Source of the DNA: a virus | Reading direction: 5' to 3' (one strand) | DNA length: 45,635 bases | IMG/VR virus record: IMGVR_UViG_3300031999_001333 | Span: 1-45,635 of that record | Shown: positions 9,224 through 35,303 of the stretch, piece after piece | How the letters are laid out: each line of letters starts with the position of its first letter | How positions within the stretch are numbered: the stretch's first letter is position 1 | The notes under the pieces: generated by a model | The model's database searches: none | Seen by the model: only the letters and a program-made list of their open reading frames with translations | What the model was told of the DNA's origin: nothing | Position numbers and translations under genes: made by a program

Positions 9224-12200
9224 ATGGAACAAAATCAAAATAATCTAACTATTTGGCAAAGATTATCTCAAGTATTTGGTCCGAATTCTTTATTAGGTCA
9301 AGATTTACCAACATACAAACTTGATAAAACAGAGTTATTAAGAACCACAGATAAGAAAGAATACGAACTTGAGAAATTACAAACTCAACAATCAATGTAC
9401 CTGTCGGGACAATGGGCAAAGATTGAGAATAACTTATACACACAAGCGGTTTATTATGAACCAACAAGATTAGCATCATTTTATGATTATGAATCAATGG
9501 AGTTTACTCCTGAAATTTCTACTGCCTTGGATATCTATTCTGAAGAATCAACTACCGCAGATCAAGATGGTTATATATTACAGATATATTCTGAATCAAA
9601 AAGAATAAAAGGAATATTAGCAGATTTATTTAATAATATTTTAGATATTAACACCAATCTTGCAATGTGGACAAGAAATACCCCTATTAGAGAGGATAGT
9701 ATGATACCATTATTAGATGGGACTGAAATAACTATTAAAGAATTATCCGATAGAGTTAAATCTGGTGAAGAAATTTGGTCTTACGCAATACAAGATGGTA
9801 CAAAAGCAATTGTTCCTAGTAAAATTATATGGTGTGACCTTACTAGAAAAGATAGTGAATTAATAAGAGTCACTTTGGATGATGGGACATATATTGATAC
9901 AACACCAGATCACGAGTATATGCTTAGAGATGGGTCATATAAACGAGCTGACTCTTTAACTGAAGGACAATCTTTGATGCCTTTTTACACTAGAAAAAGT
10001 GAAAAGAAACAAGATTGTATTGTTGGTTACGAAAAAATATATAACCCTAGTACTACTAAATATAAATTTACACATTCTTTAGTTGCACATGAATGTGTTA
10101 GGGATTTAGAATATGAAAAATCTATTGGTAGTCAGTTTGACACACATCATTATGATTTTAATAAATTAAATAATAACCCTAATAATTTAATTAGATTAAC
10201 GCATTCGGATCATTTCAAACTGCATGTAGAACATTTTGATAAAATATTGGGCTCACCAGAAGTGGTTAAAAAAAGAATGGTGGGTGTTGATAAATATCTT
10301 AGGTCTGATAAAAGAAAACAAAGATTGTCTCAAGAAATGTCCGGCATTTACCCTAAATATTTTGAACAATATAATTTTAGTGATTTACATACAGAACACA
10401 ATAAAATTCGTTCTGAAAAAATGTTAAATAATTGGGATTCTGTAGAATTTACAGAAAAAACTAAAAAAGGTATGACTATTGAAATTAGTGATGATTGTTT
10501 AGAATATATTTCAAATTTAATTATTAATAACGAAAATTATATCGGAATCAATAAACTATCAGAATTATTAAAAAATGATGATGATTTTATTCAACTTTTT
10601 AAGGTTAATTATTCATTAAGAAAAGATATAAAAAAATCAATTAACCCAACAACACTTAATAAAGTTATTTTTAGAAAAACTAATAAAAATTATTTTGATT
10701 TTGTTTTAGGTGTTAAACCAATCCTTATTTTAGATAAATCGTATATAAAAGCAAAATCAATTTATTTAGGTAAAACAAAAGAAAATCACTTATTAAACCA
10801 TAAAGTGGTTTCTGTTGTTAAATTAATTGAAACATCGGATGTGTATTGTTTAGAAGCTGTTGGACCTAACGGTGAACACGATAGACACAACTTTCCAGTG
10901 TTAGGTAAGGACATAAATGGTTCATACTCAAGAACTTCTGGTGTGTTTTTATCCAACTGTAAATACGGAGATAACTTTGTTTACTTAAAACTTGATCCTG
11001 AAAAAGGTATTGTTGGTTGTATGCAATTACCTAATATTGAAATTGAACGATTAGAGAGGGGTATGGCGGCAAAATCGGTAAATGCCGAAGTTGACCCAAA
11101 ATCAAAAGGTTTAAGATTCCATTGGAAAATTAAAGATATGGAATTTAACTCCTGGGAGATTGCCCACTTTAGATTATTGGGTGATGATAGAAAACTTCCT
11201 TACGGTACTTCTATGTTAGAAAAAGCAAGACGTATATGGAAACAATTATTATTATCTGAAGATGCAATGTTAATTTATCGTACATCAAGAGCTCCTGAAC
11301 GAAGAGTATTTAAAGTTTTTGTTGGTAATATGGATGATAAAGATGTTGAATCATATGTTCAGCGTGTTGCAAACAAATTCAAACGAGATCAAGTAGTGGA
11401 TTCAAAGACAGGTAATGTTGATATGAGATTTAACCAAATGGCGGTAGATCAAGATTATTTTGTTCCTGTAAGAGATGTTGCACAAACAATGCCGATTGAG
11501 ACATTAGCAGGAGCTCAAAACTTGTCTGAAATTGCGGATATTGAATACATTCAAAAGAAATTGGTAACCGCATTAAGAGTTCCTAAAGCGTATTTAGGAT
11601 TTGAGGAAGTTGTTGGTGACGGTAAGAATCTATCATTACAAGATATTCGTTTTGCAAGAACTATTAATAAGATACAAAAAAGTATGATTGCCGAAATGAA
11701 TAAAATTGCAATCATTCACCTATACTTATTAGGATTTGAGGATGAATTACAAAACTTTACATTAGGTCTTACAAACCCATCCAAACAAGCAGATTTATTG
11801 ATGATTGATGTGTGGAAAGAAAAAGTTCTTTTATATAAAGATTTGGTTACTGAAATTCCTAACACAATCCAACCAACATCCGCAACTTGGGCTAAAAAAC
11901 ACATTTTTGGATTCTCTGATGAAGATATTAAATTGGATGTCCAACAAATTAGATTAGAAAGAGCGGTTGCTGCAGAACTTACTAATACTCCAACAATAAT
12001 CACACATACAGGTATGTTTGATACTGTTGATAAATTATACAAAAGTAAATCAGGAACAACTCAAAATGCCGCACCACCAGCTGAAGGAGGTGAACCGCCT
12101 ATGGGAGGAGGAATGCCACCTATGGGTCCTGATATGGGAGGAGAACCTGATATGGGAGGTGAAGCACCACCACCATTACCGGAAAATAAAGAAAAAAATA

Positions 12201-12319
12201 ATTTAAATATTTTGTTAGAAAGTGACGATTTCCACGAGGATTCTTACATTGATTTAGGTAAAGCGAGAAATTCTTTAGGTTCAATGGAAGATGCATTGAG
12301 CAAATTGTTAAGAGATTGA
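9224..12319 (+). CDS. Portal protein (T4 gp20-like) interrupted by an intein
   Basis: The portal dodecamer forms the DNA entry vertex, nucleates head assembly and docks the terminase. The N-extein (residues 1 to about 152) ends in D-I-N-T-N-L-A-M-W-T-R-N. The C-extein resumes at C-K-Y-G-D-N-F-V-Y-L-K-L-D, then W-E-I-A-H-F-R-L-L-G-D, L-P-Y-G-T-S-M-L-E-K-A-R-R-I-W-K-Q-L, R-A-P-E-R-R-V-F, and the A-L-R-V-P-K-A-Y-L-G-F-E region, all typical of gp20 homologues. Removing the intein leaves about 605 residues. The C-terminus has a Gly/Pro/Met-rich stretch (repeated M-G-G and P-P-M-G) followed by an acidic helical tail. If the intein fails to splice, no portal is made, so splicing is under strong selection. 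Confidence 0.95.
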   Translation: MEQNQNNLTIWQRLSQVFGPNSLLGQDLPTYKLDKTELLRTTDKKEYELEKLQTQQSMYLSGQWAKIENNLYTQAVYYEPTRLASFYDYESMEFTPEISTALDIYSEESTTADQDGYILQIYSESKRIKGILADLFNNILDINTNLAMWTRNTPIREDSMIPLLDGTEITIKELSDRVKSGEEIWSYAIQDGTKAIVPSKIIWCDLTRKDSELIRVTLDDGTYIDTTPDHEYMLRDGSYKRADSLTEGQSLMPFYTRKSEKKQDCIVGYEKIYNPSTTKYKFTHSLVAHECVRDLEYEKSIGSQFDTHHYDFNKLNNNPNNLIRLTHSDHFKLHVEHFDKILGSPEVVKKRMVGVDKYLRSDKRKQRLSQEMSGIYPKYFEQYNFSDLHTEHNKIRSEKMLNNWDSVEFTEKTKKGMTIEISDDCLEYISNLIINNENYIGINKLSELLKNDDDFIQLFKVNYSLRKDIKKSINPTTLNKVIFRKTNKNYFDFVLGVKPILILDKSYIKAKSIYLGKTKENHLLNHKVVSVVKLIETSDVYCLEAVGPNGEHDRHNFPVLGKDINGSYSRTSGVFLSNCKYGDNFVYLKLDPEKGIVGCMQLPNIEIERLERGMAAKSVNAEVDPKSKGLRFHWKIKDMEFNSWEIAHFRLLGDDRKLPYGTSMLEKARRIWKQLLLSEDAMLIYRTSRAPERRVFKVFVGNMDDKDVESYVQRVANKFKRDQVVDSKTGNVDMRFNQMAVDQDYFVPVRDVAQTMPIETLAGAQNLSEIADIEYIQKKLVTALRVPKAYLGFEEVVGDGKNLSLQDIRFARTINKIQKSMIAEMNKIAIIHLYLLGFEDELQNFTLGLTNPSKQADLLMIDVWKEKVLLYKDLVTEIPNTIQPTSATWAKKHIFGFSDEDIKLDVQQIRLERAVAAELTNTPTIITHTGMFDTVDKLYKSKSGTTQNAAPPAEGGEPPMGGGMPPMGPDMGGEPDMGGEAPPPLPENKEKNNLNILLESDDFHEDSYIDLGKARNSLGSMEDALSKLLRD
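9680..10957 (+). mobile_element. Contiguous intein with HNH homing endonuclease, in the portal gene
   Basis: About 425 residues inside the portal protein form a Hint module plus endonuclease. The start is P-I-R-E-D-S-M-I-P-L-L-D-G-T-E-I-T-I-K-E-L. Block B is T-T-P-D-H-E-Y-M-L (T-x-x-H present). The HNH domain contains T-H-H-Y-D-F-N, N-N-P-N-N-L-I-R-L and H-S-D-H-F-K-L-H. Block F is D-V-Y-C-L-E-A-V with H-N-F-P-V. The end is V-F-L-S-N before Cys+1. The first intein residue is Thr153 or Pro154 of the precursor, not the usual Cys/Ser, and the penultimate residue is Ser instead of His. The exact left boundary is uncertain by one residue. Confidence 0.88.
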
Positions 12320-16436: not shown

Positions 16437-18287
16437 ATGGGAGCATTATTAGAATCAGGTCTTGTTGGTAACATCGGGTTGAAACACCTTAAAGTTATCA
16501 AAGAAGATACTATTAACAAATGGGACAAATTAGGGTTCCTAGATGGACTTAAAGGTCATCTAAAAGAAAACGTAGCTCAATTGTATGAGAATCAAGCGTC
16601 TTTCTTGATTAACGAAGCAACTTCAGAAGGTTCTAACGGAGCATTCGAAACAGTTGTTTTCCCAATCGTAAGAAGAGTTTTCTCTAAATTATTGGCTAAC
16701 GATATCGTTTCTGTACAAGCAATGAACTTACCTATCGGTAAATTGTTCTACTTCGTGCCTAAAATTCAAGGTTACCAAACAGGTAGTGGTAACAACATTA
16801 CAGGTGGAGAACACTACGCACCAATTGGTTCACCAAATAACCCAACAATTGATTCTAACGCAATCAATGCAGGATACACAGGAGCTAACGCTTACGCAAA
16901 AAATCTTTATGATTTATTTTATGAAGGTGGTGAAACTGGTTTAGATCCTCCAGGATTGTTTGATTACTCTAAAGGTCAGTGGACTGCGGTTACTGCGGAT
17001 GCTGATATCCAAGTATGGTCAGGAGGTAATTTAATTGATTCTTTAGCACCTGTAGGAAATATCAGAAAAATAATTTTGAAAATTTCAGGATTTAGAAATG
17101 CTGGAGCTGGTAAATTAGTTGGTCCTGATGGTAATGAAATGGATTCAGAAACATTCTTGTCTGATCTTAAAATTATTGCAACAACAGATTTATCTGCATC
17201 TACAACACCTTGTAATGTAACTAAAGATTCTGAAGGTAACTTTATTCCATTGTTGTTCAGAGTTGTTACTCAACAATACGGTAAAGGTATCGTACAATAC
17301 GGATCAAGATATACTACAACATTCCCTGGAACATCAACAACAGGTGGTAACGGTGGATCTTTCCAAGATATTTGTGATACTGATGGATATATCTATGTTG
17401 AAGTAGATCTTTCTTGCCCTGTATGTGCTGATTGTGACTCAACATCTTTAGATGGTTACACAGGTACAACAATTTTTTCAGGAGCATCAGGTGATTCATT
17501 TACTGCGGTTTATAGAACTTACAAAAATATGGAGTTTGAAGATCAAATTGGTGAAGTTTCTTTTGATTTGGAATCTGTAACAGTTTCTGTATCTGAAAGA
17601 AAATTAAGAGCTCAATGGTCTCCTGAAATGGCACAAGACGTTGCAGCATTCCACAACATTGATGCTGAAGCTGAATTAACGGCTTTATTGTCAGAACAAG
17701 TGGCGGCTGAAATTGACCGTGAAATTTTACGTGACTTGAGAAAAGGTGCGGCTTGGAACTTACGTTGGGATTACAACGGATGGAGAAGAATTGCACAAAC
17801 AACATCTTATACTCAAAAAGATTGGAATCAAACTTTGATTACTGCAATCAACCAATTGTCAGCACAAATCCACAAATCTACATTGAGAGGTGGAGCTAAC
17901 TGGATCGTAGTTTCTTCTGAAATTTCTGCAATCTTTGATGATTTAGAATACTTCCACGTATCTAACGCATCTCCTGAACAAGATCAGTATAATATGGGTA
18001 TTGAAAGAGTTGGTACTTTACAAGGTCGTTACCAAGTATATCGTGATCCTTACTTCCCACCAAACACAGTTTTGATTGGACACAAAGGAACATCATTGTT
18101 AGACACAGGTTACATTTACGCACCTTACGTACCGTTACAATTAACACCTACAATGTACAACCCATTCAACTTTACACCGATTAAAGGTATAATGACGAGA
18201 TACGCGAAAAAAATGGTAAATAATCGTTTCTACGCCAGAATTACTGTTGATGGAGTTAGAACATTTGATTTAAGAGAATTGAGATAA
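16437..18287 (+). CDS. Major capsid protein (T4 gp23-like)
   Basis: This 616-residue shell protein is a HK97-fold member of the gp23 group. Matching segments include V-F-P-I-V-R-R-V-F, Q-A-M-N-L-P-I-G-K-L-F-Y, R-K-L-R-A-Q-W-S-P-E-M-A-Q-D, E-I-D-R-E-I-L-R-D-L-R, G-G-A-N-W-I-V-V-S-S, and the C-terminal K-M-V-N-N-R-F-Y-A-R-I-T-V. A maturation site is likely at Glu60/Ala61 (F-L-I-N-E then A-T), very near the known gp23 cut after residue 65. The protein is longer than gp23 because of an extra mid-region (about residues 190-350) that holds a Cys cluster C-P-V-C-A-D-C. The gene follows the scaffold by 32 nt and ends in a strong terminator. Confidence 0.95.
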   Translation: MGALLESGLVGNIGLKHLKVIKEDTINKWDKLGFLDGLKGHLKENVAQLYENQASFLINEATSEGSNGAFETVVFPIVRRVFSKLLANDIVSVQAMNLPIGKLFYFVPKIQGYQTGSGNNITGGEHYAPIGSPNNPTIDSNAINAGYTGANAYAKNLYDLFYEGGETGLDPPGLFDYSKGQWTAVTADADIQVWSGGNLIDSLAPVGNIRKIILKISGFRNAGAGKLVGPDGNEMDSETFLSDLKIIATTDLSASTTPCNVTKDSEGNFIPLLFRVVTQQYGKGIVQYGSRYTTTFPGTSTTGGNGGSFQDICDTDGYIYVEVDLSCPVCADCDSTSLDGYTGTTIFSGASGDSFTAVYRTYKNMEFEDQIGEVSFDLESVTVSVSERKLRAQWSPEMAQDVAAFHNIDAEAELTALLSEQVAAEIDREILRDLRKGAAWNLRWDYNGWRRIAQTTSYTQKDWNQTLITAINQLSAQIHKSTLRGGANWIVVSSEISAIFDDLEYFHVSNASPEQDQYNMGIERVGTLQGRYQVYRDPYFPPNTVLIGHKGTSLLDTGYIYAPYVPLQLTPTMYNPFNFTPIKGIMTRYAKKMVNNRFYARITVDGVRTFDLRELR

Positions 18288-18309: not shown

Positions 18310-18342
18310 AAAAGGAGACAAGTAATTGTCTCCTTTTTTTTT
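18310..18342 (+). terminator. Rho-independent terminator after the capsid gene
   Basis: AAAAGGAGACAA (18310-18321) pairs perfectly with TTGTCTCCTTTT (18326-18337) around a 4-nt loop, followed by T residues to 18342. Confidence 0.9.
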
Positions 18343-18350
18343 ATTCCATA

Positions 18351-18358
18351 TATTTATT
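18351..18358 (+). promoter_or_regulatory. TATTTATT element, candidate late promoter
   Basis: CATATATTTATTAAAAAAC, 14 nt before the ATG at 18373 and directly after the capsid terminator, so the next gene has its own transcription unit. Confidence 0.4.
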
Positions 18359-18372: not shown

Positions 18373-19341
18373 ATGAGAAATTTATTATTAACATTTATTT
18401 TGGTATCATCCACTTTTATGGGGTTCTGTCAAAATGTATTATTTAGTGAAAATATCGGTACCGCAGTATCTACAGCAACAATTTCAGTAACAAGTAACCC
18501 TTTTCAAAACAGTAGTTTAACTTTTGGTGGAACTGCAGACACTAGAATAACCGGATTATCAACAGGATATGTTGGGGCTAGCGGAAATAGGAATGTATTT
18601 TTAACACCTACAGTAGGAACTAATTTTCAAATATCATCAATTTCAACAATTAATAGATATAATTTTAAATTATCATTCGGTGCATTTAAAAGTACAAACG
18701 CATCTAATATGTCTGAATTAACATTGGAATATAGTATTGATGGAATTAAATATTTCCCAATAACAATTCCAACCCAACCAACGGGAACAGGAACTTCCTC
18801 TTGGAGGTTAATCTCCGACATTGTATTACCATCATCGGTGAATAATGTTTCAAACCTTAGATTGAGGTGGAAACAAACATCCTCAACAATTCAATTTAGA
18901 ATTGATGACATTAAATTAACCAACGAAACCGCATTACCTATTGAATTAATTCGTTTTGATGGTAATGCCGTATCAAATACTGTTCACCTATATTGGTCAA
19001 CCGCTTCAGAACAAAATTCAGATTATTTTTTAATTGAAAAAAGTTTTGACGGAATTGATTGGAATTTAGTTGGTTCTGTGAAAGCGGCAGGTAATAGTAA
19101 CCAAACAATTGATTATTCATTTATAGATAATGATTTAAAATTTGGCGTATCGTATTACAGATTAAAACAATTTGATTTTGATGGGGAATTTAAAATTTAT
19201 TCTGTAATTGCAATTGATAATAAAATAAAAAAAGATGTTATTAAAATTATTGATTTAACAGGTAGAGAAGTTAACGAATACTATAAAGGATGGGTTGTGA
19301 TTTATTATGACAATCGGGAAATAATTAAAACCTATCAATAA
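18373..19341 (+). CDS. Secreted protein with type IX secretion-like C-terminal region
   Basis: This 322-residue protein starts with a signal peptide (MRNLLLTFILVSSTFMGFCQ, cleavage near residue 20). Residues about 25-185 are Ser/Thr-rich and beta-strand-rich, resembling a jelly-roll or adhesin-like domain (…F-R-I-D-D-I-K-L at its end). Then comes L-P-I-E-L-I-R-F-D-G, the start of an Ig/FN3-like module typical of Bacteroidota type IX secretion substrates: S-T-A-S-E-Q-N-S-D-Y-F, A-A-G-N-S, Y-Y-R-L-K-Q-F-D-F-D-G. Last is a short sorting-domain-like end, I-K-I-I-D-L-T-G-R-E-V, then a Lys-containing tail. Such proteins are exported by Sec and then moved to the cell surface by the host T9SS. The gene is flanked by its own promoter-like element and terminators, like a moron. 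The domain calls are from pattern recognition. Confidence 0.8.
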   Translation: MRNLLLTFILVSSTFMGFCQNVLFSENIGTAVSTATISVTSNPFQNSSLTFGGTADTRITGLSTGYVGASGNRNVFLTPTVGTNFQISSISTINRYNFKLSFGAFKSTNASNMSELTLEYSIDGIKYFPITIPTQPTGTGTSSWRLISDIVLPSSVNNVSNLRLRWKQTSSTIQFRIDDIKLTNETALPIELIRFDGNAVSNTVHLYWSTASEQNSDYFLIEKSFDGIDWNLVGSVKAAGNSNQTIDYSFIDNDLKFGVSYYRLKQFDFDGEFKIYSVIAIDNKIKKDVIKIIDLTGREVNEYYKGWVVIYYDNREIIKTYQ

Positions 19342-19372
19342 TAAAAATAAATCAATGAATTATAATCGTGAG

Positions 19373-19400
19373 GGGGTAAATGGTAATTTACCCCTTTTTT
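19373..19400 (+). terminator. Rho-independent terminator
   Basis: GGGGTAAAT (19373-19381) pairs perfectly with ATTTACCCC (19386-19394) around loop GGTA, followed by six T. It ends the first secreted-protein gene. Confidence 0.9.
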
Positions 19401-19435
19401 CATGCTCTAAATATTTTTTTTTAATTGTATCATTG

Positions 19436-19443
19436 TATTTATA
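19436..19443 (+). promoter_or_regulatory. TATTTATA element upstream of a structured leader
   Basis: ATTGTATTTATAGG, 101 nt before the ATG at 19545, much further than at other genes. Transcription starting shortly downstream would begin at about the first base of the structured element at 19449. Confidence 0.4.
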
Positions 19444-19448
19444 GGTAT

Positions 19449-19519
19449 AAGAGCTCAACCCGCCCAAGGAAGTTGGGGGTTCCATAGAACGGTTCTTCAA
19501 GTGAGACTTATGTTTTTTT
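19449..19519 (+). ncRNA. Candidate structured leader or small RNA (three-way junction)
   Basis: This stretch is about half G+C in a region that is otherwise about 70% A+T. A consistent fold can be drawn by hand. P1 pairs AAG (19449-19451) with CTT (19507-19509) and CTCA (19454-19457) with TGAG (19502-19505). P2 pairs ACC and CCCAA (19458-19467, with a CG bulge) with TTGGG and GGT (19473-19480) around loop GGAAG. P3 pairs AGAA (19486-19489) with TTCT (19493-19496). A run of seven T (19513-19519) follows P1. It could be a riboswitch-like attenuator, a translation regulator for the secreted-protein gene, or a separate 70-nt RNA. It matches no RNA family I recognise, and no start codon opens the one frame that is free of stops. 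Confidence 0.4.
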
Positions 19520-19544
19520 ATTAACATACAAAAAATATAAAGTC

Positions 19545-21509
19545 ATGCGTAATTTTCTATTCATTCTATTAACTTTTTTAAGTTTTAATCTTTTTTCACA
19601 GTATTGTAATTTAGCAACAACTAATGTTCCAATAACACCAACAACAACCGCACAATTAACAACTTCTTATAATTCTGGAAGGAGAGCATTTAATTTTGTT
19701 GCAACCGCAGGATGTACTTATGTATTTGAAACCTGTGGGCTTTCAACTGCGGATACATATTTAAGATTATACTCAACAGGAACAGGAGGTACTGTTTTGG
19801 TGACAGGTGATGATAATTGTGGATCACAATCAAGAATTACTTGGACTTGTACAACAAGTGGGACTTACTCAATATTAGTAACAAATTGGTCTTGTGCGGC
19901 ATTAAGTGTTGCAACTCGCGTAAGATTTTATATATCAGGTTGTGTAACCCCATTTAACCCCTGCTCAAGTATAACAACACTTTCTTGTGGTGTTGCAACA
20001 ACATTCACCATTTCATCGGGGAATGGATTGTATAATCCCCCATCAACTAGTTGTGGGTTCACTACCCCAGGACGAGAAAGAATATTTCAAATTACCCCAA
20101 CGGTATCAGGAAATTATACAATCTCTCAACCAACAAGTTTTGGTTATATTGATTGGTTTTATAAATTATCATCAGGGGGATGTAACGGAACTGGATGGAC
20201 TTGCATTGACGACATTTCAACGGGAAATATCGGTAATTCAAATGTGAATATTCCATTACTTGCCGGACAAACATATTATATTATGGGAGATCCGGAAACA
20301 ACGGGTGGTGGTTCGGTAACATTTACGTTAAATTGTCCCGTATTACTACCATCAAATGATTTAATATGTAATGCAATAACCATCAATTGTGGTACAACAT
20401 TAAATGGTACAACAGTTAACTCAACTAATAGTGGAGTTGGTGAAGGTGGGTCATGCGGAACATCACAAACAACAGGTGGTGTATGGTATAAAGTTGTTGG
20501 TACGGGAGATTTAATGGTGGTATCTTTATGTGCAACTGCTTGGGATTCAAAAATATCTCTTTATCAAGGTACTTGTACGATACCTACTTGTATTGGTGGG
20601 ATTGACGATGACGGACCGTCTTGTGTGGGATCATCATCATCGTATCAGTGGGTGTCATCATTGGGAACTACTTATTGGATTTTGGTTCACGGGTATTCCA
20701 CAACATCATCATTTTCATTGAGTTTAACTTGTTCTCCACCCCCATCTATTGGTCCTTGTTTTGCAACATCTCCGTGGACAGTATTAAATATGCCAACATC
20801 TCCGTCTACAGTTTCATCCACCTGTTTAAGTGGGAATGGTCAATTTACTGATGAATATAGTACTTGGAATACAGGTATTGCTGGTACCATATATAATGTT
20901 CAATCAAGTTTATCAACAGATTGGGTTACAGTGACTGTTGGTTCACCTTCGGGTACTGTTGTTGGATATGGTACAACCCCAATTTCATTTACCGCACCAT
21001 CAAATAATACTTATTATGTTCACATAACAACAAATGGTTATTGTATGAACGATGCAAATTGTAGGGATATCACAGTAAATAGGATTTCTTCTTTACCAAT
21101 TGAGTTGGTATCTTTTAATGGTATGAAAAAGAATGGTGATAATTTTTTATATTGGGTAACCGCTTCTGAAAGGGATAATGATTATTTTACATTAGAATAT
21201 TCTATTGACGGAGAATTTTGGTTGGACATTTCAAATATAAATGCTGCTGGTAACTCACAACAAGAATTGTCATATTCATATATTCATAAAACATATGATA
21301 GAAGTGTCACCAATTATTATAAATTATCTCAAACCGATTTTAACGGTGTGAGAACATACTTTAATGATGTTGCGATTACCAACACCCCAAATCAAAAAGA
21401 AGTGGTTAAAATCGTTAATACCATAGGACAAGAGGTAAATTCGTTTTCACCTAATGGAATGTATTTTGAAATCTATGACGATGGTTCAATAATGAAGGTG
21501 ATGAAATGA
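19545..21509 (+). CDS. Secreted adhesin-like protein with type IX secretion-like C-terminal region
   Basis: This 654-residue protein has a signal peptide (MRNFLFILLTFLSFNLFSQ, cleavage near residue 19-20). The body contains at least two or three repeats of a Cys-containing beta domain resembling the pre-peptidase C-terminal (PPC) type: F-N-F-V-A-T-A-G-C-T-Y-V-F-E-T-C-G, D-T-Y-L-R-L-Y-S-T-G, G-T-Y-S-I-L-V; later W-D-S-K-I-S-L-Y-Q-G-T-C and W-I-L-V-H-G-Y. The end is L-P-I-E-L-V-S-F-N-G, T-A-S-E-R-D-N-D-Y-F, A-A-G-N-S-Q-Q, Y-Y-K-L-S-Q-T-D-F-N-G, then V-K-I-V-N-T-I-G-Q-E-V and a short strand pair, matching the 18373 protein and T9SS sorting regions. It is probably displayed on or released from the host surface. 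The gene has its own promoter-like element and long structured leader. Confidence 0.82.
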   Translation: MRNFLFILLTFLSFNLFSQYCNLATTNVPITPTTTAQLTTSYNSGRRAFNFVATAGCTYVFETCGLSTADTYLRLYSTGTGGTVLVTGDDNCGSQSRITWTCTTSGTYSILVTNWSCAALSVATRVRFYISGCVTPFNPCSSITTLSCGVATTFTISSGNGLYNPPSTSCGFTTPGRERIFQITPTVSGNYTISQPTSFGYIDWFYKLSSGGCNGTGWTCIDDISTGNIGNSNVNIPLLAGQTYYIMGDPETTGGGSVTFTLNCPVLLPSNDLICNAITINCGTTLNGTTVNSTNSGVGEGGSCGTSQTTGGVWYKVVGTGDLMVVSLCATAWDSKISLYQGTCTIPTCIGGIDDDGPSCVGSSSSYQWVSSLGTTYWILVHGYSTTSSFSLSLTCSPPPSIGPCFATSPWTVLNMPTSPSTVSSTCLSGNGQFTDEYSTWNTGIAGTIYNVQSSLSTDWVTVTVGSPSGTVVGYGTTPISFTAPSNNTYYVHITTNGYCMNDANCRDITVNRISSLPIELVSFNGMKKNGDNFLYWVTASERDNDYFTLEYSIDGEFWLDISNINAAGNSQQELSYSYIHKTYDRSVTNYYKLSQTDFNGVRTYFNDVAITNTPNQKEVVKIVNTIGQEVNSFSPNGMYFEIYDDGSIMKVMK

Positions 21510-21724: not shown

Positions 21725-21739
21725 TTTAGTATTGTTTGA

Positions 21740-21747
21740 TATTTATA
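21740..21747 (+). promoter_or_regulatory. TATTTATA element in a divergent intergenic gap
   Basis: TTGATATTTATAATAATAG, 21 nt before the ATG at 21769. On the other strand it reads TATAAATA, 15 nt before the minus-strand ATG at 21724, so it might serve either gene. Confidence 0.4.
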
Positions 21748-21768
21748 ATAATAGATAAGTTTGTTAAA

Positions 21769-22689
21769 ATGTTAAATGATATCATAAAAAAAGTTTTAAG
21801 GGAAGCTACTTCAGATAGTGGGGGTAGTCGTGGATCATATATTGCACCATTATCGTTGGGGATTAGAAAGTTCAAGGATAATAATACGGCTCCATTTACG
21901 ATACCCGTTTCTAAATATGATAGTCCTATGTTAGAATTTGATAGTTATGACGGGAAAATGGACGAAACAAAAAAACAAATTAAAAAAATAGAATCTAAAG
22001 CAAAGAAAGTTACTAATTATATCAAAAACAACCCACAATCAACATTTAGTGATGAAGATGGTAATAATATAAACCCAACTCCCGGTAAGAATAAGAAAGT
22101 AGTTCCAATTAAAGAAAGCTCAACCTCAATATCATCAGGGGAATATACCGGTCCGATTGAACTTGGTTTAAAAAAATGGAAAAAATATCATTTAGAACCA
22201 TTTACCGAATTTGTTGATACCGAATTTAATCATCAAAAAAAACAAAAAACAATGAAGAATAATATTAAAAAAGTTGTAGGTGTTTGGGAAAAAAACTCTG
22301 AAGGAACTTACGATACATATGAACACGATGTTGATTTTATTAAAGAAGATTTGGCGGTTTGGTTTGGAACAAAGAAAAAACCAAAAGGTTCTAAACAACC
22401 AAAAGGTCCTTGGGTTGATATATGTAAAAAAGTTGACGGAAAACATCCCCCTTGTGGTAGAAGTGACTCTGATAAGGGTTCTTACCCAAAATGTCGTGCT
22501 GCGAGTGTTGCAGGTAAGATGAGTGATTCGTCAAAAAAAGCCGCTTGTCAACAAAAACGAAAAGCCGAGAAAAAAGATACTCAAACAGGTAAAGGTCAAA
22601 AACCTGTTATGACATCATACAAACCAAGAAAAGAATCTATTGATGTATTAGTCAACAGAATCATTACCGAGATTAGAAATTCTTTCTAA
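21769..22689 (+). CDS. DUF5872-type protein with an internal duplication
   Basis: This 306-residue protein has three parts. The first 12 residues, M-L-N-D-I-I-K-K-V-L-R-E followed by A, look like a capsid-targeting leader. Residues about 16-180 hold two copies of a unit: S-x-G-x-Y, x-x-P-[LI]-x-L-G-[IL]-[RK]-K, then x-x-x-x-x-P-F-T. The C-terminal part has the DUF5872 pattern: E-D-L-A-V-W-F-G-T-K-K-K-P-K-G-S, W-V-D-I-C-K-K-V, H-P-P-C-G-R, Y-P-K-C-R-A-A-S-V-A, and a Lys/Ala helix. DUF5872 proteins are basic, recur in cyanophage-like and other large viruses, and their function is unknown; Cys and His could bind zinc. The start at 21769 was preferred to a TTG at 21736 that lies inside the promoter-like element. 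Confidence 0.78.
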   Translation: MLNDIIKKVLREATSDSGGSRGSYIAPLSLGIRKFKDNNTAPFTIPVSKYDSPMLEFDSYDGKMDETKKQIKKIESKAKKVTNYIKNNPQSTFSDEDGNNINPTPGKNKKVVPIKESSTSISSGEYTGPIELGLKKWKKYHLEPFTEFVDTEFNHQKKQKTMKNNIKKVVGVWEKNSEGTYDTYEHDVDFIKEDLAVWFGTKKKPKGSKQPKGPWVDICKKVDGKHPPCGRSDSDKGSYPKCRAASVAGKMSDSSKKAACQQKRKAEKKDTQTGKGQKPVMTSYKPRKESIDVLVNRIITEIRNSF

Positions 22690-23616: not shown

Positions 23617-23778
23617 TTAAGAATTTAATCCATTAGGACCACCTAATGTTATCATATTTAATTGTGTTACTTGAGTCCCATACCCATCAGTCCATATTGG
23701 GTGAGGTGGGACAATTGATACTGTATTACCGCTACAGTCAATTACACATACTGTTGATTCCGTATTTGCACTTCTTGG
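23617..23778 (-). repeat. C-terminal cassette, copy 1 of 2
   Basis: DNA encoding the last 53 residues of paralogue A, closely similar at base level to copy 2 at 24229-24390. It is a recent duplication or gene-converted segment. Confidence 0.85.
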
Positions 23779-24213
23779 AGATTCACAATCACAATTAGTG
23801 AAAGGTCCTGTAATATTGAAAGTAAACGGGAAAGAATCATTAATTATTCCAGTTACTGTCACACAAAGACAATTAATAACCTCACCTTCACATATAAGAT
23901 AATTTTGCCCTATCGGCCATTCTGTAAATTGGTTTGAATCAATTGGTCCAGATATTTCCGGATCGTCACAGGATACCGCCAAAAAAGATAAACCGTTACT
24001 TTGTAAACATTTTAAACAATCATCAAACTCAACAGACGATAAAACACCCTCTCCAACTATTTCTAAAGATTCTTCAACAACTCTGAAACACCCCGCAGTT
24101 GTCTCACCTGTAAATTCAATAAAATAGATACTACCTGGTGTTAAAGTGTTTTCACCGGGATTTACCACTAATTCAGTTATTTCGTCACATCCAAGTATTA
24201 AATAATTTGCCAT
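23617..24213 (-). CDS. Cys-rich fibre/tail-associated protein, paralogue A
   Basis: This 198-residue protein begins M-A-N-Y-L-I-L-G-C. It has about ten Cys spread as single residues and pairs (C-L-K-C, C-L-C, C-D-C), with beta-strand periodicity suggesting two or three small repeated beta modules. The last 53 residues (from P-R-S-A-N-T-E-S-T-V-C to G-P-N-G-L-N-S) match the paralogue at 24229 in 51 positions, while the rest is much less alike. The likely role is a tail fibre, decoration or host-contact component, given its place next to baseplate genes; this is inference. No signal peptide is visible. Confidence 0.7.
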   Translation of the reverse strand: MANYLILGCDEITELVVNPGENTLTPGSIYFIEFTGETTAGCFRVVEESLEIVGEGVLSSVEFDDCLKCLQSNGLSFLAVSCDDPEISGPIDSNQFTEWPIGQNYLICEGEVINCLCVTVTGIINDSFPFTFNITGPFTNCDCESPRSANTESTVCVIDCSGNTVSIVPPHPIWTDGYGTQVTQLNMITLGGPNGLNS

Positions 24214-24228: not shown

Positions 24229-24390
24229 TTAAGAATTTAATCCGTTAGGACCACCTAATGTTATCATATTTAATTGAGTTACGGGTGTTCCATATCCGTC
24301 TGTCCATATTGGATGTGGTGGTATAATTGATACTGTATTACCACTACAGTCAATTACACATACTGTTGATTCCGTATTTGCACTTCGTGG
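24229..24390 (-). repeat. C-terminal cassette, copy 2 of 2
   Basis: DNA encoding the last 53 residues of paralogue B. The protein differs from copy 1 only at V/I and Q/P positions, while the upstream parts of the two genes have diverged strongly. Confidence 0.85.
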
Positions 24391-24846
24391 TGGTTCTGGT
24401 TGTGATCCACAATCTTCACAAAGTAAATAGGGTCCTAGACTATACGAATAATTTGTTTCCCCCGTTGAACTTAATCCTTCAAAAGTAGCACAAAATGGTG
24501 TTTCAGAACCAAATTGTATTTCATAAGTTATACCTGTTGTAGGTGCTCCATATTCACCACAAAAGTTAATTGACTCTATATTAATTTCTTCTAATGTGTC
24601 ACATCGTATAAATTTAAAATTTAAAGACTCTCTACCATCATCATTTAAACACTCACAACAATCTGTATATTGTTGAAAGTTATAGTAATAACCTGGAGTT
24701 ATGGAGGACTCTGTTTCTGACTCAACAGTACCGCAAAATAAATCTTCACCAATACCAAACCTTATTACCTCTCCCACTATTAATGTATCGGCAGACACAA
24801 CATATTGATTATTAGTTAAACATTGATTTATAATATAATTCGCCAT
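24229..24846 (-). CDS. Cys-rich fibre/tail-associated protein, paralogue B
   Basis: This 205-residue protein begins M-A-N-Y-I-I-N-Q-C and has many Cys (C-C-E-C, C-E-D-C and singles) in beta-rich repeats. Its final 53 residues are nearly identical to those of paralogue A, including C-V-I-D-C-S-G-N-T-V-S-I and H-P-I-W-T-D-G-Y-G-T. The N-terminal part shares only the M-A-N-Y start, Cys pattern and general length with A. This is the layout of a receptor-binding or decoration protein with a constant attachment end and a variable body. A TATTTATA element lies 12 nt upstream, so this gene probably heads the 24846-to-23146 minus transcript. Confidence 0.7.
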   Translation of the reverse strand: MANYIINQCLTNNQYVVSADTLIVGEVIRFGIGEDLFCGTVESETESSITPGYYYNFQQYTDCCECLNDDGRESLNFKFIRCDTLEEINIESINFCGEYGAPTTGITYEIQFGSETPFCATFEGLSSTGETNYSYSLGPYLLCEDCGSQPEPPRSANTESTVCVIDCSGNTVSIIPPHPIWTDGYGTPVTQLNMITLGGPNGLNS

Positions 24847-30433: not shown

Positions 30434-31180
30434 TTATTTTACCATTTCTTGAATAAGTTGAAAGTATATTTTACGATACCTTTTAATTGACGATCTAATT
30501 TCTTTAGTAGTTAAATTCGTCATTTCCCTTAATTCAAATAAAATGATGTTTTTATTGAATTTATTATTTGATGTGTCAAGAAAAATATTGTTATAATTTT
30601 CAAACATATCATACAACGCCTGCCCCAATTTTATTTCTTGTTCGGATATTTGCTTATCGGATAAAGTTTCCGATAGTTTATGTAAAAATCTTTTAATGAT
30701 TTCTTCCGTAGTAATACTATAATCATCAATATGATATATCATATCGGGACTATGTTGTAAATCAGACGAAATATCTTCATAAGATATTTTTCTATTTGTT
30801 TCTTTCTGATCTTTCATTATTTGTCCCATCAAATAATTTTTACAGATGGTACCAAAATATGAATACGCTTTTTTTTCTTTTGCTGGCTTAAATTTATCAA
30901 TTTTAGTCATCAAGAACGAATGAGTGTCTGTATGAACTTCATCAAAGTTCATATCTTTTCTATACAATTTATATCTTCTAATAATTGAAGATATCATTTT
31001 GTCTAAAGGATGTTTTAAAAACTCATTATAAATTTTATTTTTTTCTTCAAAAGATTCTGCGGTTAGATACATTCTAACCGCGTTTTCTTCTCTTTCATCA
31101 AAATAATTATTAGGTTTTGGTTTTCTTCCTTTCTTTTTTACCTCATCTGAAGTGATTACAATTACTTCATTGTCGTTCAT
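30434..31180 (-). CDS. Late sigma factor-like protein (T4 gp55-like)
   Basis: In T4, gp55 is a minimal sigma that directs host RNA polymerase to late promoters. This 248-residue protein has the sigma region 2-like core: P-L-D-K-M-I-S-S-I-I-R-R-Y, F-D-E-V-H-T-D-T-H-S-F-L-M-T-K-I-D-K-F, and K-A-Y-S-Y-F-G-T-I-C-K-N-Y-L-M-G. These correspond to the gp55 helices that bind the beta' coiled coil and melt DNA. A C-terminal helical part (L-T-T-K-E-I-R-S-S-I-K-R-Y-R-K) could be a helix-turn-helix. A basic start, K-K-K-G-R-K-P-K-P, adds DNA affinity. It is longer than T4 gp55. Its ATG overlaps the upstream glycosyltransferase stop (TAATG). The likely targets are the TATTTATA elements of this window. Confidence 0.78.
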   Translation of the reverse strand: MNDNEVIVITSDEVKKKGRKPKPNNYFDEREENAVRMYLTAESFEEKNKIYNEFLKHPLDKMISSIIRRYKLYRKDMNFDEVHTDTHSFLMTKIDKFKPAKEKKAYSYFGTICKNYLMGQIMKDQKETNRKISYEDISSDLQHSPDMIYHIDDYSITTEEIIKRFLHKLSETLSDKQISEQEIKLGQALYDMFENYNNIFLDTSNNKFNKNIILFELREMTNLTTKEIRSSIKRYRKIYFQLIQEMVK

Positions 31181-31983
31181 TAAACTTCTTGTGGTTCGTA
31201 ATTTATTTCCCTTTGATTAATGAACATATACTCTTTTTTTGCCGAGTCAATCCAAAATCTAACCTCATCTTCACCTAATACATCGTCACCATTTTTATAG
31301 TTCCAAAAAATAGATCCTTCTCGTAGATTAGTATGTTTGTAACCAATTTTTGGGATTGTCATAAATCTTACTGAATTATGAGTCATTCTTAAAAGAAACT
31401 CATATCCAAAAGTTAATTTAAATGTAGGTTTTAACATTCCATAATTAACAAATGATTCTTTTTTAATTGCCAATCCTGATACCTGAAAGTTTTGGTACGA
31501 TAACAAAGTTTCGTTTGTTAAAATTCCCATTTCACTTGAGAAGTTTGCCGCAAATGTTGCTTCATTAGTAAACCCAACAAATACTCCTTTATCGTCCACA
31601 TCAACCACTATAGGTAGGAATGCGTCTGTGTTTGGATATATATTTGCGTATTCTTTAAAGTTTTTAACCCATATGTTTGAGAATTCATCGTCAAACTCAA
31701 AAATTGTAACCCATTCAGATGTTGCAACTCTAACTCCGTGATTAACTTGAGATGAAAAATTTGGTTCTTTTGTCCACTCCTCAAATTTAACATTTAACTC
31801 ACCAAAATCATAAGATTGTAAATGGTTGGTTAAAAATGTTTCATTAGTATGAACAATAATAATCTCATTAAATTGTTCTTTTTGCGATTTTAATGAAGTA
31901 ATCGCTTTGTCAAGGTAATCCTCAAAAAACCCCGTTTTACCAGTTCTGATAGGTAAAATAACTGAAATTGTATTTTTTTCCAT
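31180..31983 (-). CDS. Family 2-type glycosyltransferase
   Basis: This 267-residue GT-A fold protein starts T-I-S-V-I-L-P-I-R-T-G, the first nucleotide-binding strand of GT2 enzymes. The acidic motif is W-V-T-I-F-E-F-D-D-E (D-x-D-like), and A-F-L-P-I-V-V-D-V-D-D follows. Substrate is unknown. The start at 31983 lies right after the stop of the 31985 gene and gives the canonical N-terminus. An upstream ATG at 32022 would add 13 residues that overlap that gene. It is chained to the neighbouring GT-B-like gene and to the sigma gene by a TAATG overlap. Confidence 0.85.
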   Translation of the reverse strand: MEKNTISVILPIRTGKTGFFEDYLDKAITSLKSQKEQFNEIIIVHTNETFLTNHLQSYDFGELNVKFEEWTKEPNFSSQVNHGVRVATSEWVTIFEFDDEFSNIWVKNFKEYANIYPNTDAFLPIVVDVDDKGVFVGFTNEATFAANFSSEMGILTNETLLSYQNFQVSGLAIKKESFVNYGMLKPTFKLTFGYEFLLRMTHNSVRFMTIPKIGYKHTNLREGSIFWNYKNGDDVLGEDEVRFWIDSAKKEYMFINQREINYEPQEV

Positions 31984-31984
31984 A

Positions 31985-33043
31985 TTATTCAATTGTTTCA
32001 AATTTAGAAAGTTGTTCTTCAAATGAAGTCAACCTAGTGTTTATCATATTATTAAATAAATTAACAACATCAAGTTCAAATTTAGATTTATCTGAAAACT
32101 CGGATATTGTTTTTTCCATTTCTTCAAATACCACAGGACTGATATTATCCTCTAACCAATTTTGGATAAAGTCGGCAACCACATCAACAAACATATTTTG
32201 GTTATTAATCCAAATTCCATTATTTTCGTTCATCCATTCAGGTTGTAAGTTTGGGACTAAACCAATTACAGGGATACCCATTTTAAATGATTCAAGAGGG
32301 TATGTCCCAAAGGCACTTGTAGAATCCAACCACACCGAACAAAAACTTTCTTTCATTGCGTTTGCAAATTCTAACTCTGATAAACCTCTCATATCTCTAA
32401 AAGTAATCCATCTATATTGTGGGAATTTAGCGTAAAACGCTTTAATCATATTAACAGTTTCTCTTTGATCTCTTGAGTGAACTGAAATAATTGTTTTAGG
32501 TGGGAATTTTTGTTTTTCAAAAACTTCGGAAATAAATGGAGAAACAACATCAACTGAAAGTCCTCTCATCATAGATTCAATAATTTCTTTTTGTCTGTCG
32601 GAAGTTGTAATACATTTATAAAAACCTAATTTAGTCCAAGTATCACCAGGATTTAAAGTTTCAAAAATGTGATCATAAGCTTGACACAAAACTACTTTAC
32701 CGCAAGGTAAGTTAGATATTTGATCCATAACAAATCCGTATATTTCAGGAATTACAATTATGTCTTCCGGGGAGATTGCTAAATTTGTTCCCTCAATTGC
32801 GTTGTGAGGTAATTTCATATATTCTTCGTCCAACCAACTTGAAACACCGAAGTATTCGGGTTTTTCGTGTAGAATAATTGAGTTAAACCCATTGTTTTTA
32901 AGTGTTAACGCCATTTGATAAATGTATCTAACCGACGCTCTAGCATTACCTTTTGTGTCTTGCACCAAAAAATAAATTCGGGACGACTTGTCCTTCATAT
33001 TTTGGATTGACTTCTCAAGTTTTGATATTTGTTCTTGGTTCAT
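31985..33043 (-). CDS. GT-B-like glycosyltransferase
   Basis: This 352-residue protein has the two-Rossmann layout of GT-B enzymes. N-terminal half: R-I-Y-F-L-V-Q-D-T-K-G-N-A-R-A-S and P-E-D-I-I-V-I-P-E-I-Y-G. C-terminal half: I-I-S-V-H-S-R-D-Q-R, R-W-I-T-F-R-D-M-R-G-L, and the donor-binding-like block F-G-T-Y-P-L-E-S-F-K-M-G-I-P-V-I-G-L-V. The conserved E in P-L-E-S fits the acidic residue of family 4-like enzymes. It precedes the GT2 gene by one base. Substrate is unknown; both probably modify a phage or host surface glycan. Confidence 0.78.
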   Translation of the reverse strand: MNQEQISKLEKSIQNMKDKSSRIYFLVQDTKGNARASVRYIYQMALTLKNNGFNSIILHEKPEYFGVSSWLDEEYMKLPHNAIEGTNLAISPEDIIVIPEIYGFVMDQISNLPCGKVVLCQAYDHIFETLNPGDTWTKLGFYKCITTSDRQKEIIESMMRGLSVDVVSPFISEVFEKQKFPPKTIISVHSRDQRETVNMIKAFYAKFPQYRWITFRDMRGLSELEFANAMKESFCSVWLDSTSAFGTYPLESFKMGIPVIGLVPNLQPEWMNENNGIWINNQNMFVDVVADFIQNWLEDNISPVVFEEMEKTISEFSDKSKFELDVVNLFNNMINTRLTSFEEQLSKFETIE

Positions 33044-33047
33044 AGTA

Positions 33048-33332
33048 TTAATATTTATTTATTATTTTTTTCGTTAATAGTGTATTGAATGCGATTCTAA
33101 AAGGAACCGATGTTTCATTTGACGAACTCATTGCAATTTTTTCATCAATTTCATCGTGAGGATCCGTTAAAATTTCTAACATAAATTTAACCATATCAAA
33201 TTTAACGATGTGGATTTTTGCCTGACTTTCAGTGTTTTCGGTATCTCCTGATACCACCTCGTCTTCAATTTTGGTGTAATCGGCAATTGCGTCCAAATCA
33301 ACATAATAATGTTCTCCAAAGATTTTAAACAT
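33048..33332 (-). CDS. Hypothetical protein, 94 residues
   Basis: It starts M-F-K-I-F-G-E-H-Y-Y-V-D-L-D-A-I-A-D-Y-T, then has a Thr/Glu loop, a hydrophobic helix V-K-F-M-L-E-I-L-T, and ends with a Lys-rich helix. Short, acidic, probably alpha/beta. It lies in a tight minus-strand chain between the glycosyltransferase and HAD-like genes. Similar small proteins sit near tail/PhoH genes in other large Bacteroidota phages (recalled), but no function is known. Confidence 0.65.
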   Translation of the reverse strand: MFKIFGEHYYVDLDAIADYTKIEDEVVSGDTENTESQAKIHIVKFDMVKFMLEILTDPHDEIDEKIAMSSSNETSVPFRIAFNTLLTKKIINKY

Positions 33333-33335
33333 AAT

Positions 33336-34004
33336 TTATAAAGTTTTTAATAACTCCTCAAATTCTGATAATGATGAAATTTGATATTGTGAGTTAATGT
33401 GTTTATTGTAGTCAGTGTTAAATTTTATAACAATTTTATCTGACGGATGATTTAATAATAAGTCAGGGTTTGATGTAAGTAAAATGTCTATGTTATTCCA
33501 CATTGAATTTTTTGTTAGATTACTGTAAAAAAATACTTGTTCTAACAAACATCCGAATTTTGATAAGAAAAATAATGAAGATGGTTTTGATCTTCCAATC
33601 TCATCAGACACTATTAACAATTCGTTCTCATCTCTCAAATTAAGATATAAATCGTTAAGATAATTAAAACTCATAGTTTCTGTTGATGGTGCATGACCAA
33701 ACAATTCCATTGTATAATCTTCATACATAAACGAGTATAATTCTTCTTTGGATTGAAAAGAAAAGTGGTTACTTAATTCTAAAGAACTAACATCACTTAA
33801 AATTTCATATTTAAATGGTGTTGTGTCAAATACTTCATTCATTTCAACCACATCTTCAGTATCCCCCGAAAAAGTTATCTCGTATGTTTTATCCGTAGAT
33901 TCAACATCATTGGATTCTATTAAATGTTTTTCATAAAGTTGTTTAAATTTACCAATGGTGTCTCTTAATACACCATTAATTTCAATCCCTATTCTCTTTG
34001 TCAT
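33336..34004 (-). CDS. HAD-like protein lacking the catalytic Asp
   Basis: The N-terminus T-K-R-I-G-I-E-I-N-G-V-L-R-D-T matches HAD hydrolase motif I, normally D-x-D-G-V-L-R-D, but both Asp are replaced (E and N). Motif II-like L-L-I-V-S-D-E, a Lys in S-K-P-S, and motif IV-like I-D-I-L-L-T-S-N-P-D-L-L are present in order, so the fold seems kept. The insertion between motifs I and II is large. A phosphatase activity is unlikely without the nucleophile. A binding or structural role is possible. The gene overlaps the PhoH gene at its start, so it is translationally coupled; the ATG at 34004 gives the natural motif I start, with another ATG at 34010. Confidence 0.7.
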   Translation of the reverse strand: MTKRIGIEINGVLRDTIGKFKQLYEKHLIESNDVESTDKTYEITFSGDTEDVVEMNEVFDTTPFKYEILSDVSSLELSNHFSFQSKEELYSFMYEDYTMELFGHAPSTETMSFNYLNDLYLNLRDENELLIVSDEIGRSKPSSLFFLSKFGCLLEQVFFYSNLTKNSMWNNIDILLTSNPDLLLNHPSDKIVIKFNTDYNKHINSQYQISSLSEFEELLKTL

Positions 34005-34725
34005 ATTCAAGTAATATTTTAGTAATTAATGGGTTTCTCACATTTTTAGCATCTCTGAAATCATAAACACCAATATCCGAAACATTCTTAAATTTCTGTA
34101 TTGCGTCGTATAATCCCGATTGTTTTTTATCTTTATATCTGTCAGTTTGTTCTAAATCTCCTGATATAAAAAATTTACTGTTATAACCAATTCTTGTTAA
34201 CAACAATTTCATTTGGTTAGGTGTTGAGTTTTGAGCTTCCTCAAAAATTAATATTGAGTTGTCAATATTCATACCTCTCATATACGCCAAAGCAAATACC
34301 TCAATGATTTCGGCTTTCTTTAATTCTTCTCTAGCCTCTTTACCGATAATTTTATTTAATAGATAATAAGAGGGGAAGATATACGGATCCAATTTTTCTT
34401 CAAGGTTTCCTGGTAATGATCCTAATTTTTCTTCCGCTTCAACTGCGGGTCTAACAATAATGATTTTTTCATATGAATTGTTTGTATCCATTAACAAATC
34501 CACTGCCGCCTTCATTGCGATAAAACTTTTACCAACACCTGCCGGTCCTGAAGCAACCGTGATTTGATTATTTTTTAAAATGTTATAATAATCTTCCTGA
34601 TGTTCGGATAAAAATTTATTTTTTTGTTTTCGTTTAATTACTGAATTAATAAAATCCTTTTTTGAAAAGGGTTTAGAGTCTTGTGTTTCCGATTTAATTG
34701 ACGGATCTGATTTTTTTCTTACCAT
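33982..34725 (-). CDS. PhoH-like P-loop ATPase
   Basis: This 247-residue protein has Walker A G-P-A-G-V-G-K-S (residues 60-67), I-I-I-V-R-P-A-V-E-A, G-S-L-P-G-N-L-E-E-K-L-D-P-Y, Walker B S-I-L-I-F-E-E-A-Q-N, and the sensor-like F-F-I-S-G-D-L-E-Q-T-D. These are the hallmark blocks of PhoH proteins. They are widespread in phages, and their role (RNA helicase or nuclease accessory, or phosphate-stress related) is unsettled. A basic Lys-rich leader of about 45 residues precedes the domain. It overlaps the HAD-like gene by 23 nt. Confidence 0.93.
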   Translation of the reverse strand: MVRKKSDPSIKSETQDSKPFSKKDFINSVIKRKQKNKFLSEHQEDYYNILKNNQITVASGPAGVGKSFIAMKAAVDLLMDTNNSYEKIIIVRPAVEAEEKLGSLPGNLEEKLDPYIFPSYYLLNKIIGKEAREELKKAEIIEVFALAYMRGMNIDNSILIFEEAQNSTPNQMKLLLTRIGYNSKFFISGDLEQTDRYKDKKQSGLYDAIQKFKNVSDIGVYDFRDAKNVRNPLITKILLEYDKENRD

Positions 34726-34729
34726 TTAT

Positions 34730-35299
34730 TTATGATGTTAGTTTATTGTAGTAACTAATTGGTTGATTCCAAATAGCACATTTCTTACCGTAATAATTAT
34801 AAACAGAATCCCAAAAAAGAAAATCTTTATGGTTGACACCTGGTATATGTTCTTTAGGCCATTTACATTCGGACAAACAAGAATGGTGTGACAATACATT
34901 ACCGGTATCAATTCTACCAAATACAGGTTTACTTGCAATTAAACGAAGTTTATTTTTAAAATTCAATTGTTCCCCAACTAACATACCTCTAAAATTATAT
35001 TCCGAACACTCCAAGTATTTCATATACATATTTTCGTGAAAAACTGTGTCATCATCTAAAAAACAAAAATATCCATTATTAATTTCTTTTAAAATTTCAT
35101 TCCTTTTTTTAAAAATTTCATTATCCTCACAATCAATACTATAAATTTTTATATTTTTATCTTTTAAAAAACTTAAATCAGGTAAATCTCTTTTATTAGA
35201 ATGGGATATGTGCCAAACAATATCGTCATTCCTTAATATAGAATTATATATTAATTCTATATTTTCATATCTATAAAGTGGGGTTATTATGTGTAGCAT
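34730..35299 (-). CDS. Short GT-A-fold glycosyltransferase
   Basis: This 189-residue protein starts M-L-H-I-I-T-P-L-Y-R-Y-E-N-I and has the donor-binding acidic motif Y-F-C-F-L-D-D-D-T-V. It ends with H-K-D-F-L-F-W-D and I-S-Y-Y-N-K-L. It is shorter than most GT2 enzymes, consistent with a single catalytic domain. It is the first (downstream-most) gene of the sugar-modification cluster and lies 5 nt from the aminotransferase gene. Substrate is unknown. Confidence 0.75.
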   Translation of the reverse strand: MLHIITPLYRYENIELIYNSILRNDDIVWHISHSNKRDLPDLSFLKDKNIKIYSIDCEDNEIFKKRNEILKEINNGYFCFLDDDTVFHENMYMKYLECSEYNFRGMLVGEQLNFKNKLRLIASKPVFGRIDTGNVLSHHSCLSECKWPKEHIPGVNHKDFLFWDSVYNYYGKKCAIWNQPISYYNKLTS

Positions 35300-35303
35300 A
35301 TTT

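Follow-up and report, generated by a model that had tools for sequence, protein, structure and literature searches.

Two predicted exported proteins behind the major capsid gene

The two adjacent genes considered here, g1 and g2, belong to a virus record (IMG/VR IMGVR_UViG_3300031999_001333), the whole stretch of which, 45.6 kb in length, is hereafter called the window, and in which terminase, portal, prohead protease, gp23-type major capsid and PhoH genes were identified. An earlier note on this DNA had placed two adjacent genes behind the capsid gene, and had ascribed to both products a Sec signal peptide, a shared module and a short C-terminal region. All of these features were recovered: both open reading frames follow the PF07068 gene, each protein carries a signal peptide with a predicted cut before Gln, and the two share a module (LPIEL...YYRLKQFDFDG in g1 and LPIEL...YYKLSQTDFNG in g2) of about 90 residues, followed by a short tail. 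The coordinates of these features are collected in Table 1.

Specifically, the hydrophobic N-terminus ends with Cys in g1 (...MGFC/QNV, the slash marking the predicted cut) and with Ser in g2 (...LFS/QYC), in both cases followed by Gln. According to the Q-rule report (PMC5837995), Gln is the residue mostly exposed after cleavage of the Bacteroidota signal peptidase I substrates. By a simple home-made rule, used in place of SignalP, the combination of signal peptide and Gln was found in 3 of the 46 window genes, namely g1, g2 and the gene at 1429-1872. Among the viral relatives, the N-terminus is visible in 63; the rule assigns a signal peptide to every one of these, and in 62 of them a small residue followed by Gln stands at the cleavage site. 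The gene at 1429-1872, on the minus strand, is small (147 residues) and has the signal peptide and the Q-rule site without a sorting tail.

The N-terminal domains of the two proteins differ. That of g1 gave a weak match to Reelin_subrepeat-B (PF21471, E 4e-5, below the cut-off) and, when its model was compared through Foldseek, matches to carbohydrate-binding and reelin folds, the model confidence being low in this region; g2 matched the PPC-type collagen-binding domains of ColG (5iku, E 9.5e-7). These matches bear on the jelly-roll-like and PPC-like folds proposed earlier for g1 and g2, respectively. No enzymatic domain match was obtained for g1 or g2 in the profile search, and the other domains of the viral relatives include CUB, MAM, fn3, PKD, GEVED, G8 and P-domain matches, likewise of the binding kind. 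Judging from the domain types, the N-terminal domains of g1 and g2 probably bind glycans or surface proteins.

Relatives of g1 and g2 with 82-95% identity, mostly full length, were found in seven overlapping loci (five viral contigs). Because the ratio of nonsynonymous to synonymous substitution rates (dN/dS) with respect to relatives is about 0.12-0.23, both are regarded as functional genes. In addition, an HNH endonuclease gene occupies the g1 position in relative L008, and the g2 orthologues of L001 and L008, of 519 residues, have one repeat fewer than the window g2; therefore, the pair is modular and dispensable.

Upstream of the two genes, a promoter-like motif was detected. TATTTAT[ATC] lies 20-28 nt before 9 of the 47 gene starts of the window, including those of terminase, protease and scaffold, where about 0.2 would be expected from position alone (arithmetic from site density), and is likely the phage's own late-type promoter. 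Since this motif is shared, g1 and g2 would be expressed together with the structural genes. A scan for sigma-70 promoters returned no more matches than shuffled sequence; an Rfam search of the window returned no family, and the folding of the g2 leader was unremarkable (z -1.0). Examples of TATTTAT sites standing at a fixed distance ahead of structural genes are found at 776, 7182, 12320, 13799 and 18351 and, on the minus strand, at 24866 and 26363.

Table 1. Features of the g1-g2 locus and of its borders in the window.
Feature	Position	Strand	Remark
gp23-type (T4 gp23-type) major capsid gene	16437..18287	+	Pfam PF07068, E 3.9e-73; left border of cargo slot
Terminator-like hairpin and T-run behind capsid gene	18310..18337	+	same hairpin after capsid gene in relatives
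Phage promoter-like motif TATTTATT	18351..18358	+	22 nt before g1 start
g1, predicted exported protein, 322 residues	18373..19341	+	directly behind capsid gene
g1 signal peptide, Gln at +1	18373..18429	+	sequence; Q-rule survey
g1 N-terminal jelly-roll/reelin-B-like putative binding domain	18430..18930	+	PF21471 below cut-off; Foldseek
g1 LPIEL...YYRLKQ.D..G beta-sandwich module	18934..19206	+	predicted local confidence (pLDDT) mostly 83-92
g1 short C-terminal sorting-like tail, motifs B, D, E	19207..19338	+	alignment, profile, model
Promoter-like motif TATTTATA	19436..19443	+	109 nt before g2 start
g2, predicted exported protein, 654 residues	19545..21509	+	open reading frame; relatives; dN/dS
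g2 signal peptide, Gln at +1	19545..19598	+	sequence; Q-rule survey
g2 N-terminal repeats of PPC-type beta-sandwich domains	19599..21092	+	Foldseek, 5iku ColG collagen-binding domain
g2 LPIEL...YYKLSQ.D..G module	21093..21368	+	sequence alignment
g2 short C-terminal sorting-like tail	21369..21506	+	alignment, profile
Core gene, right border of slot	21736..22689	+	conserved flank in 32 loci; true start perhaps ATG at 21769

The short tail in viruses and cells, and the capsid-adjacent slot

The tail behind the module is about 45 residues long, with the consensus IsIDN....KkvvKyiNllGQEVds..kG.ifevYdDGt.kKiir-COOH. The tails of the A2 alignment measure 44-48 residues, reach the C-terminus or stop just a few residues short of it, and keep both the Gly of motif B and the Gly of motif D in 34 cases out of 34. 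Motif rules were home-made, and structure models were built from shallow alignments. On these terms, Lys or Arg occurs among the last 8 residues of 101/101 viral short tails; the gap between motifs B and D, measured with a simple pattern rule, has a median of 5 and ranges from 0 to 19 in the viral short tails, compared to 24 in cellular long tails; and the PNP-like motif A was found in 0/101 viral short tails, as against 57/74 cellular long tails. In the g1 model, three strands are predicted in the tail, at residues 289-294, 307-312 and 317-321.

A comparable architecture has been described by Ye et al. (2025) in Prevotella intermedia, where cargo proteins with short C-terminal domains (CTDs) of 43-55 residues are cleaved and glycosylated by the type IX secretion system (T9SS) (PMC11969387). 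These short CTDs contain motifs B, D and E; Gly is absolutely conserved in both B and D, motif E has a conserved basic residue, B and D are 1-6 residues apart, and the predicted fold is one sheet of three strands. The same paper describes P. intermedia as the sole species for which long as well as short CTDs had been reported (PMC11969387). The phage tails agree with them in length, in the B-D-E order, in the Gly of B and D, in the basic residue of E, in the B-D gap, in the strands and in the presence of a Sec signal peptide; they differ in mostly lacking the motif B Tyr and the motif D GxY. In addition, the tails described here belong to phages and to a Flavobacteriales-type order.

The tail also shows similarity to the longer type A CTD (TIGR04183/PF18962), which in Bacteroidota chromosomes usually follows the same LPIEL module and in which motifs B, D and E occur in the same order. 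Compared with a profile of cellular type A CTDs, the short tail reached a score of 19.5 (P 5.7e-4), the best of 30 column shuffles reaching 11.6, and the profile alignment paired motif B and motif D in order. The short tail differs from the type A CTD by the lack of motif A (PNP), of motif C, of the seven-strand fold and of a model match. A sequence search of PDB gave zero matches with the module, and with the tail only 7jvi_A, at chance level (E 0.62).

To avoid bias, viral contigs were queried only with cellular long-tailed proteins from which the tail had been removed. This tail-free query led to 77 distinct closed viral tails, 65 of them short and 12 long and type A-like. Cellular relatives, scanned with a query that included the short tail, had 15 short and 75 long tails, and the viral and cellular sets, whose hosts are unmatched, differ with a Fisher p of 2e-19. 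The module occurs in over a hundred viral contigs, of sizes up to hundreds of kb, and clustering of the viral relatives at 55% identity gives 59 groups. The module is present in huge phages of 460-640 kb as well, in one of them with a full YPNP-type CTD.

On bacterial chromosomes, the module is not a prerequisite of the short tail, which there also ends unrelated proteins that have CAP, beta-lactamase-fold and GH16 domains. These chromosomal tails, of the form G(R/Q)E...Y.DG(T/S).(E/K)K (for example L344, L354 and L345), are matched by no Pfam or NCBIfam model. Since too few of the short tails in cells were counted with A2, the first profile used across the phylum, a second one, A8, was built; in the phylum sample of 395 genomes A2 found 4, and A8 gave two strong matches. 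Within one order, of Flavobacteriales type, profile A8 located a chromosomal short tail in 146 of 249 genomes. In four metagenome-assembled genomes (MAGs), the short-tail gene lies one gene away from porT/sprT (NF052311, 136.8 bits in one tested MAG). If these tails act as T9SS signals, short CTDs would be common well beyond P. intermedia, and TIGR04183, PF18962 and NF033708 would fail to detect them.

The position of the two genes was compared across related phages, represented by metagenomic fragments. In 32 distinct loci fetched through the module, a capsid gene of the window type (72-97% identity) stands on one side and a gene of the type found at 21736 on the other, and the genes between these borders encode proteins that begin with a signal peptide followed by Gln, end in the short tail and vary widely in their N-terminal parts. 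As loci fetched in this way overstate how often the slot is filled, the scan was repeated starting from the capsid protein. Following this approach, 62 loci had 1.2 kb or more of sequence behind the capsid gene, and a short-tail gene was found in 10 of these; the others were occupied by HNH genes or by unrelated phage genes, or were nearly empty.

In a 229-kb relative, with near-identical copies in two other contigs, the first slot gene encodes a subtilase with SprB repeats (PF18962, 43.9 bits, cut-off 27 bits) and the second a SprB-repeat protein (PF18962, 51.4 bits); a third SprB-repeat protein follows, and then g1- and g2-like genes. Recognised type A cargo thus stands beside g1/g2-like genes in a related phage with the same capsid type. 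The slot of another relative holds a signal-peptide NS-endonuclease (DNA/RNA non-specific) and a subtilase. Judging from this gene content, the slot behind the capsid gene is an optional and exchangeable cassette of putative cargo in related phages. Capsid-adjacent slots with subtilase, SprB-repeat proteins and NS-endonuclease are located at 7015-10641 of L337 and 7825-10680 of L331.

Proposed export through the host T9SS and its alternatives

We propose that with g1 and g2 the phage supplies the host T9SS with cargo that is made together with the virions and alters the host surface, and to this explanation as a whole we assign a probability of about 0.7. Transcribed together with the structural genes, as their shared promoter motif would predict, the two proteins would cross the inner membrane through Sec and be cut by signal peptidase I before Gln. 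They would then fold in the periplasm and pass the outer membrane via the host T9SS, which may recognise motifs B, D and E of the short tail, by analogy with the short CTDs of P. intermedia, and they would finally either stay attached to the infected cell's surface or be released from it. Concerning the residues involved, GFP is exported when given just the final 22 residues of the CTD of HBP35, which comprise motifs D and E (PMC10202324), and for RgpB/PorU motif B and the C-terminus are required (PMC11285876).

The use of the host T9SS, as put forward in the earlier note, is well supported by inference from the Q-rule signal peptides and the short-CTD-like tail, and also by the long type A tails at the same place in other phage proteins and the recognised type A cargo in the equivalent slot of a related phage. 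Three observations weigh against it. No match to TIGR04183, PF18962, NF033708, TIGR04131 or any other curated sorting model was found in g1 or g2, so that in neither protein is the tail a recognised type A, B or C sorting domain; among 57 viral relatives, the type C model NF033708 gave one chance-level match (E 0.2). Formally, the missing domain match that the earlier note had named among its refuting outcomes thus came about with the current profile models, the reason being that these do not extend to short CTDs. In addition, the Tyr of motif B and the GxY/GxN of motif D are mostly missing (Ile or Val, and G-[FIVL]-x, in A2), and in P. intermedia these residue choices are strong preferences within one species and not absolute (PMC11969387). 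Finally, within the order, the tail and SprA showed no above-chance tracking: SprA is present in 244 of the 249 genomes and the tail in 2 of the 5 SprA-less ones, a comparison which is uninformative because SprA is nearly universal in the order.

Export through Sec without the T9SS, in which case the tail would be no more than the end of the LPIEL module's own strands, and g1 and g2 would be periplasmic or would get to the surface by a different path, we consider unlikely. It would agree with the missing model match, with the g1 model, in which the tail directly follows the module at high confidence, and with the two SprA-negative MAGs that carry the tail, although incomplete assembly could account for the latter. 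However, a full type A CTD follows the module at the same point in cells and in some phages, the tail is also found on unrelated cellular enzymes devoid of the module, and the short-CTD architecture is proven elsewhere (PMC11969387).

Still less probable is that g1 and g2 form part of the virion, for example as fibres or as decoration of the head, with their genes next to the capsid gene as is the case for other head genes. Ig-like and binding domains do occur on phage heads, as in T4 Hoc, and the adjacent capsid gene and the promoter motif common with structural genes would fit. Nevertheless, all relatives have a Sec signal peptide, with the Q-rule site in 62/63, which is needless for a capsid protein assembled in the cytoplasm; the slot is empty or otherwise filled in most relatives (the 10/62 capsid loci mentioned above), and it also accepts subtilases and a secreted-type nuclease. 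Misbinned host DNA, suggested by the module being common in Bacteroidota chromosomes, was rejected with near certainty, as in 32 distinct loci the genes are flanked on both sides by core genes of the phage, and the module recurs in more than a hundred viral contigs.

Given surface export, receptor masking or superinfection exclusion is tentatively the most likely single benefit, at odds clearly short of even; adhesion or competition, and the release of progeny, each rank below it when taken singly. It leads because the two proteins have binding-type domains and because the T9SS exports gliding adhesins, among them SprB and RemA, that may serve phages as receptors, gliding mutants being resistant to phages (PMC13288928). 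A different purpose of the same T9SS cargo, namely a change in adhesion, an attack on neighbours or matrix, or the freeing of progeny from debris, is a serious possibility that comes nearer to, without reaching, an even chance. The subtilase and NS-endonuclease in related slots, and the CUB, MAM, fn3, PKD, G8 and P-domain proteins elsewhere, are cargo types that fit adhesion or extracellular digestion, and Bellas et al., whose ideas on the cargo of Cryophage are similar, list inter-strain competition for it as well (PMC7468147). On the other hand, g1 and g2 have no enzymatic domain match, and the SprB-repeat mimics, together with the reports on SprB/RemA receptors (PMC13288928), fit receptor masking as well or better.

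Cargo of the T9SS encoded by a phage is less unusual than the earlier note had assumed: it was reported in 2020 for Cryophage, where it likewise varies among related phages and was proposed to hijack secretion (Bellas et al. 2020, PMC7468147), and the spread of the module in viral contigs points the same way. In contrast to the Cryophage cargo, which has recognised type A domains (endoglucanase, GH39, PA14), most proteins described here end in short tails missed by the models, and a fixed capsid-adjacent slot is defined. Phages of Porphyromonas gingivalis (PMC10367356) have Q-rule signal-peptide genes and are likewise adapted to the Sec system and signal peptidase I of Bacteroidota, and the text of that paper leaves the T9SS unmentioned. 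The open-licence literature contains one earlier case of phage T9SS cargo and one of short CTDs; new are the combination of phage cargo with a short CTD, the wide spread of the short tail in viral contigs, the exchangeable slot behind the capsid gene and the spread of short tails in a second bacterial order.

We would give even odds to the generalisation that a large family of T4-like phages of T9SS-bearing Bacteroidota keeps a swappable, capsid-adjacent cassette, whose products the host T9SS delivers during virion production, mostly through an unannotated compact tail, and that such re-coating is widespread. If the proposed export through the T9SS is true, the use by phages of a bacterial machine dedicated to secretion, in order to coat or arm the cells they infect, is routine, the T9SS, with its reported influence on the adsorption of flavobacterial phages, is linked to competition between phages, and superinfection exclusion in this phage group becomes directly testable. 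The short tail would then provide a search handle for finding such cargo.

Other genes of the window

The portal gene (9224-12319, plus strand) is interrupted in frame by an intein with an HNH motif (PF14890, residues 161-545, 51.6 bits), and the match to the T4-type portal falls C-terminal of the intein. On the minus strand, the proteins encoded by the neighbouring genes 23617-24213 and 24229-24846 differ in their N-terminal parts and have a near-identical C-terminus of about 50 residues (PRSANTESTVCVIDCSGNTVSI.PPHPIWTDGYGT...); recombined versions of this protein pair are found in the relatives L001, L004 and L008. Finally, several glycosyltransferase-like genes lie on the minus strand within 31180-45488, at about 31.2-32.0, 39.4-41.0 and 44.2-45.5 kb, and they possibly have a role in the modification of surface or DNA.

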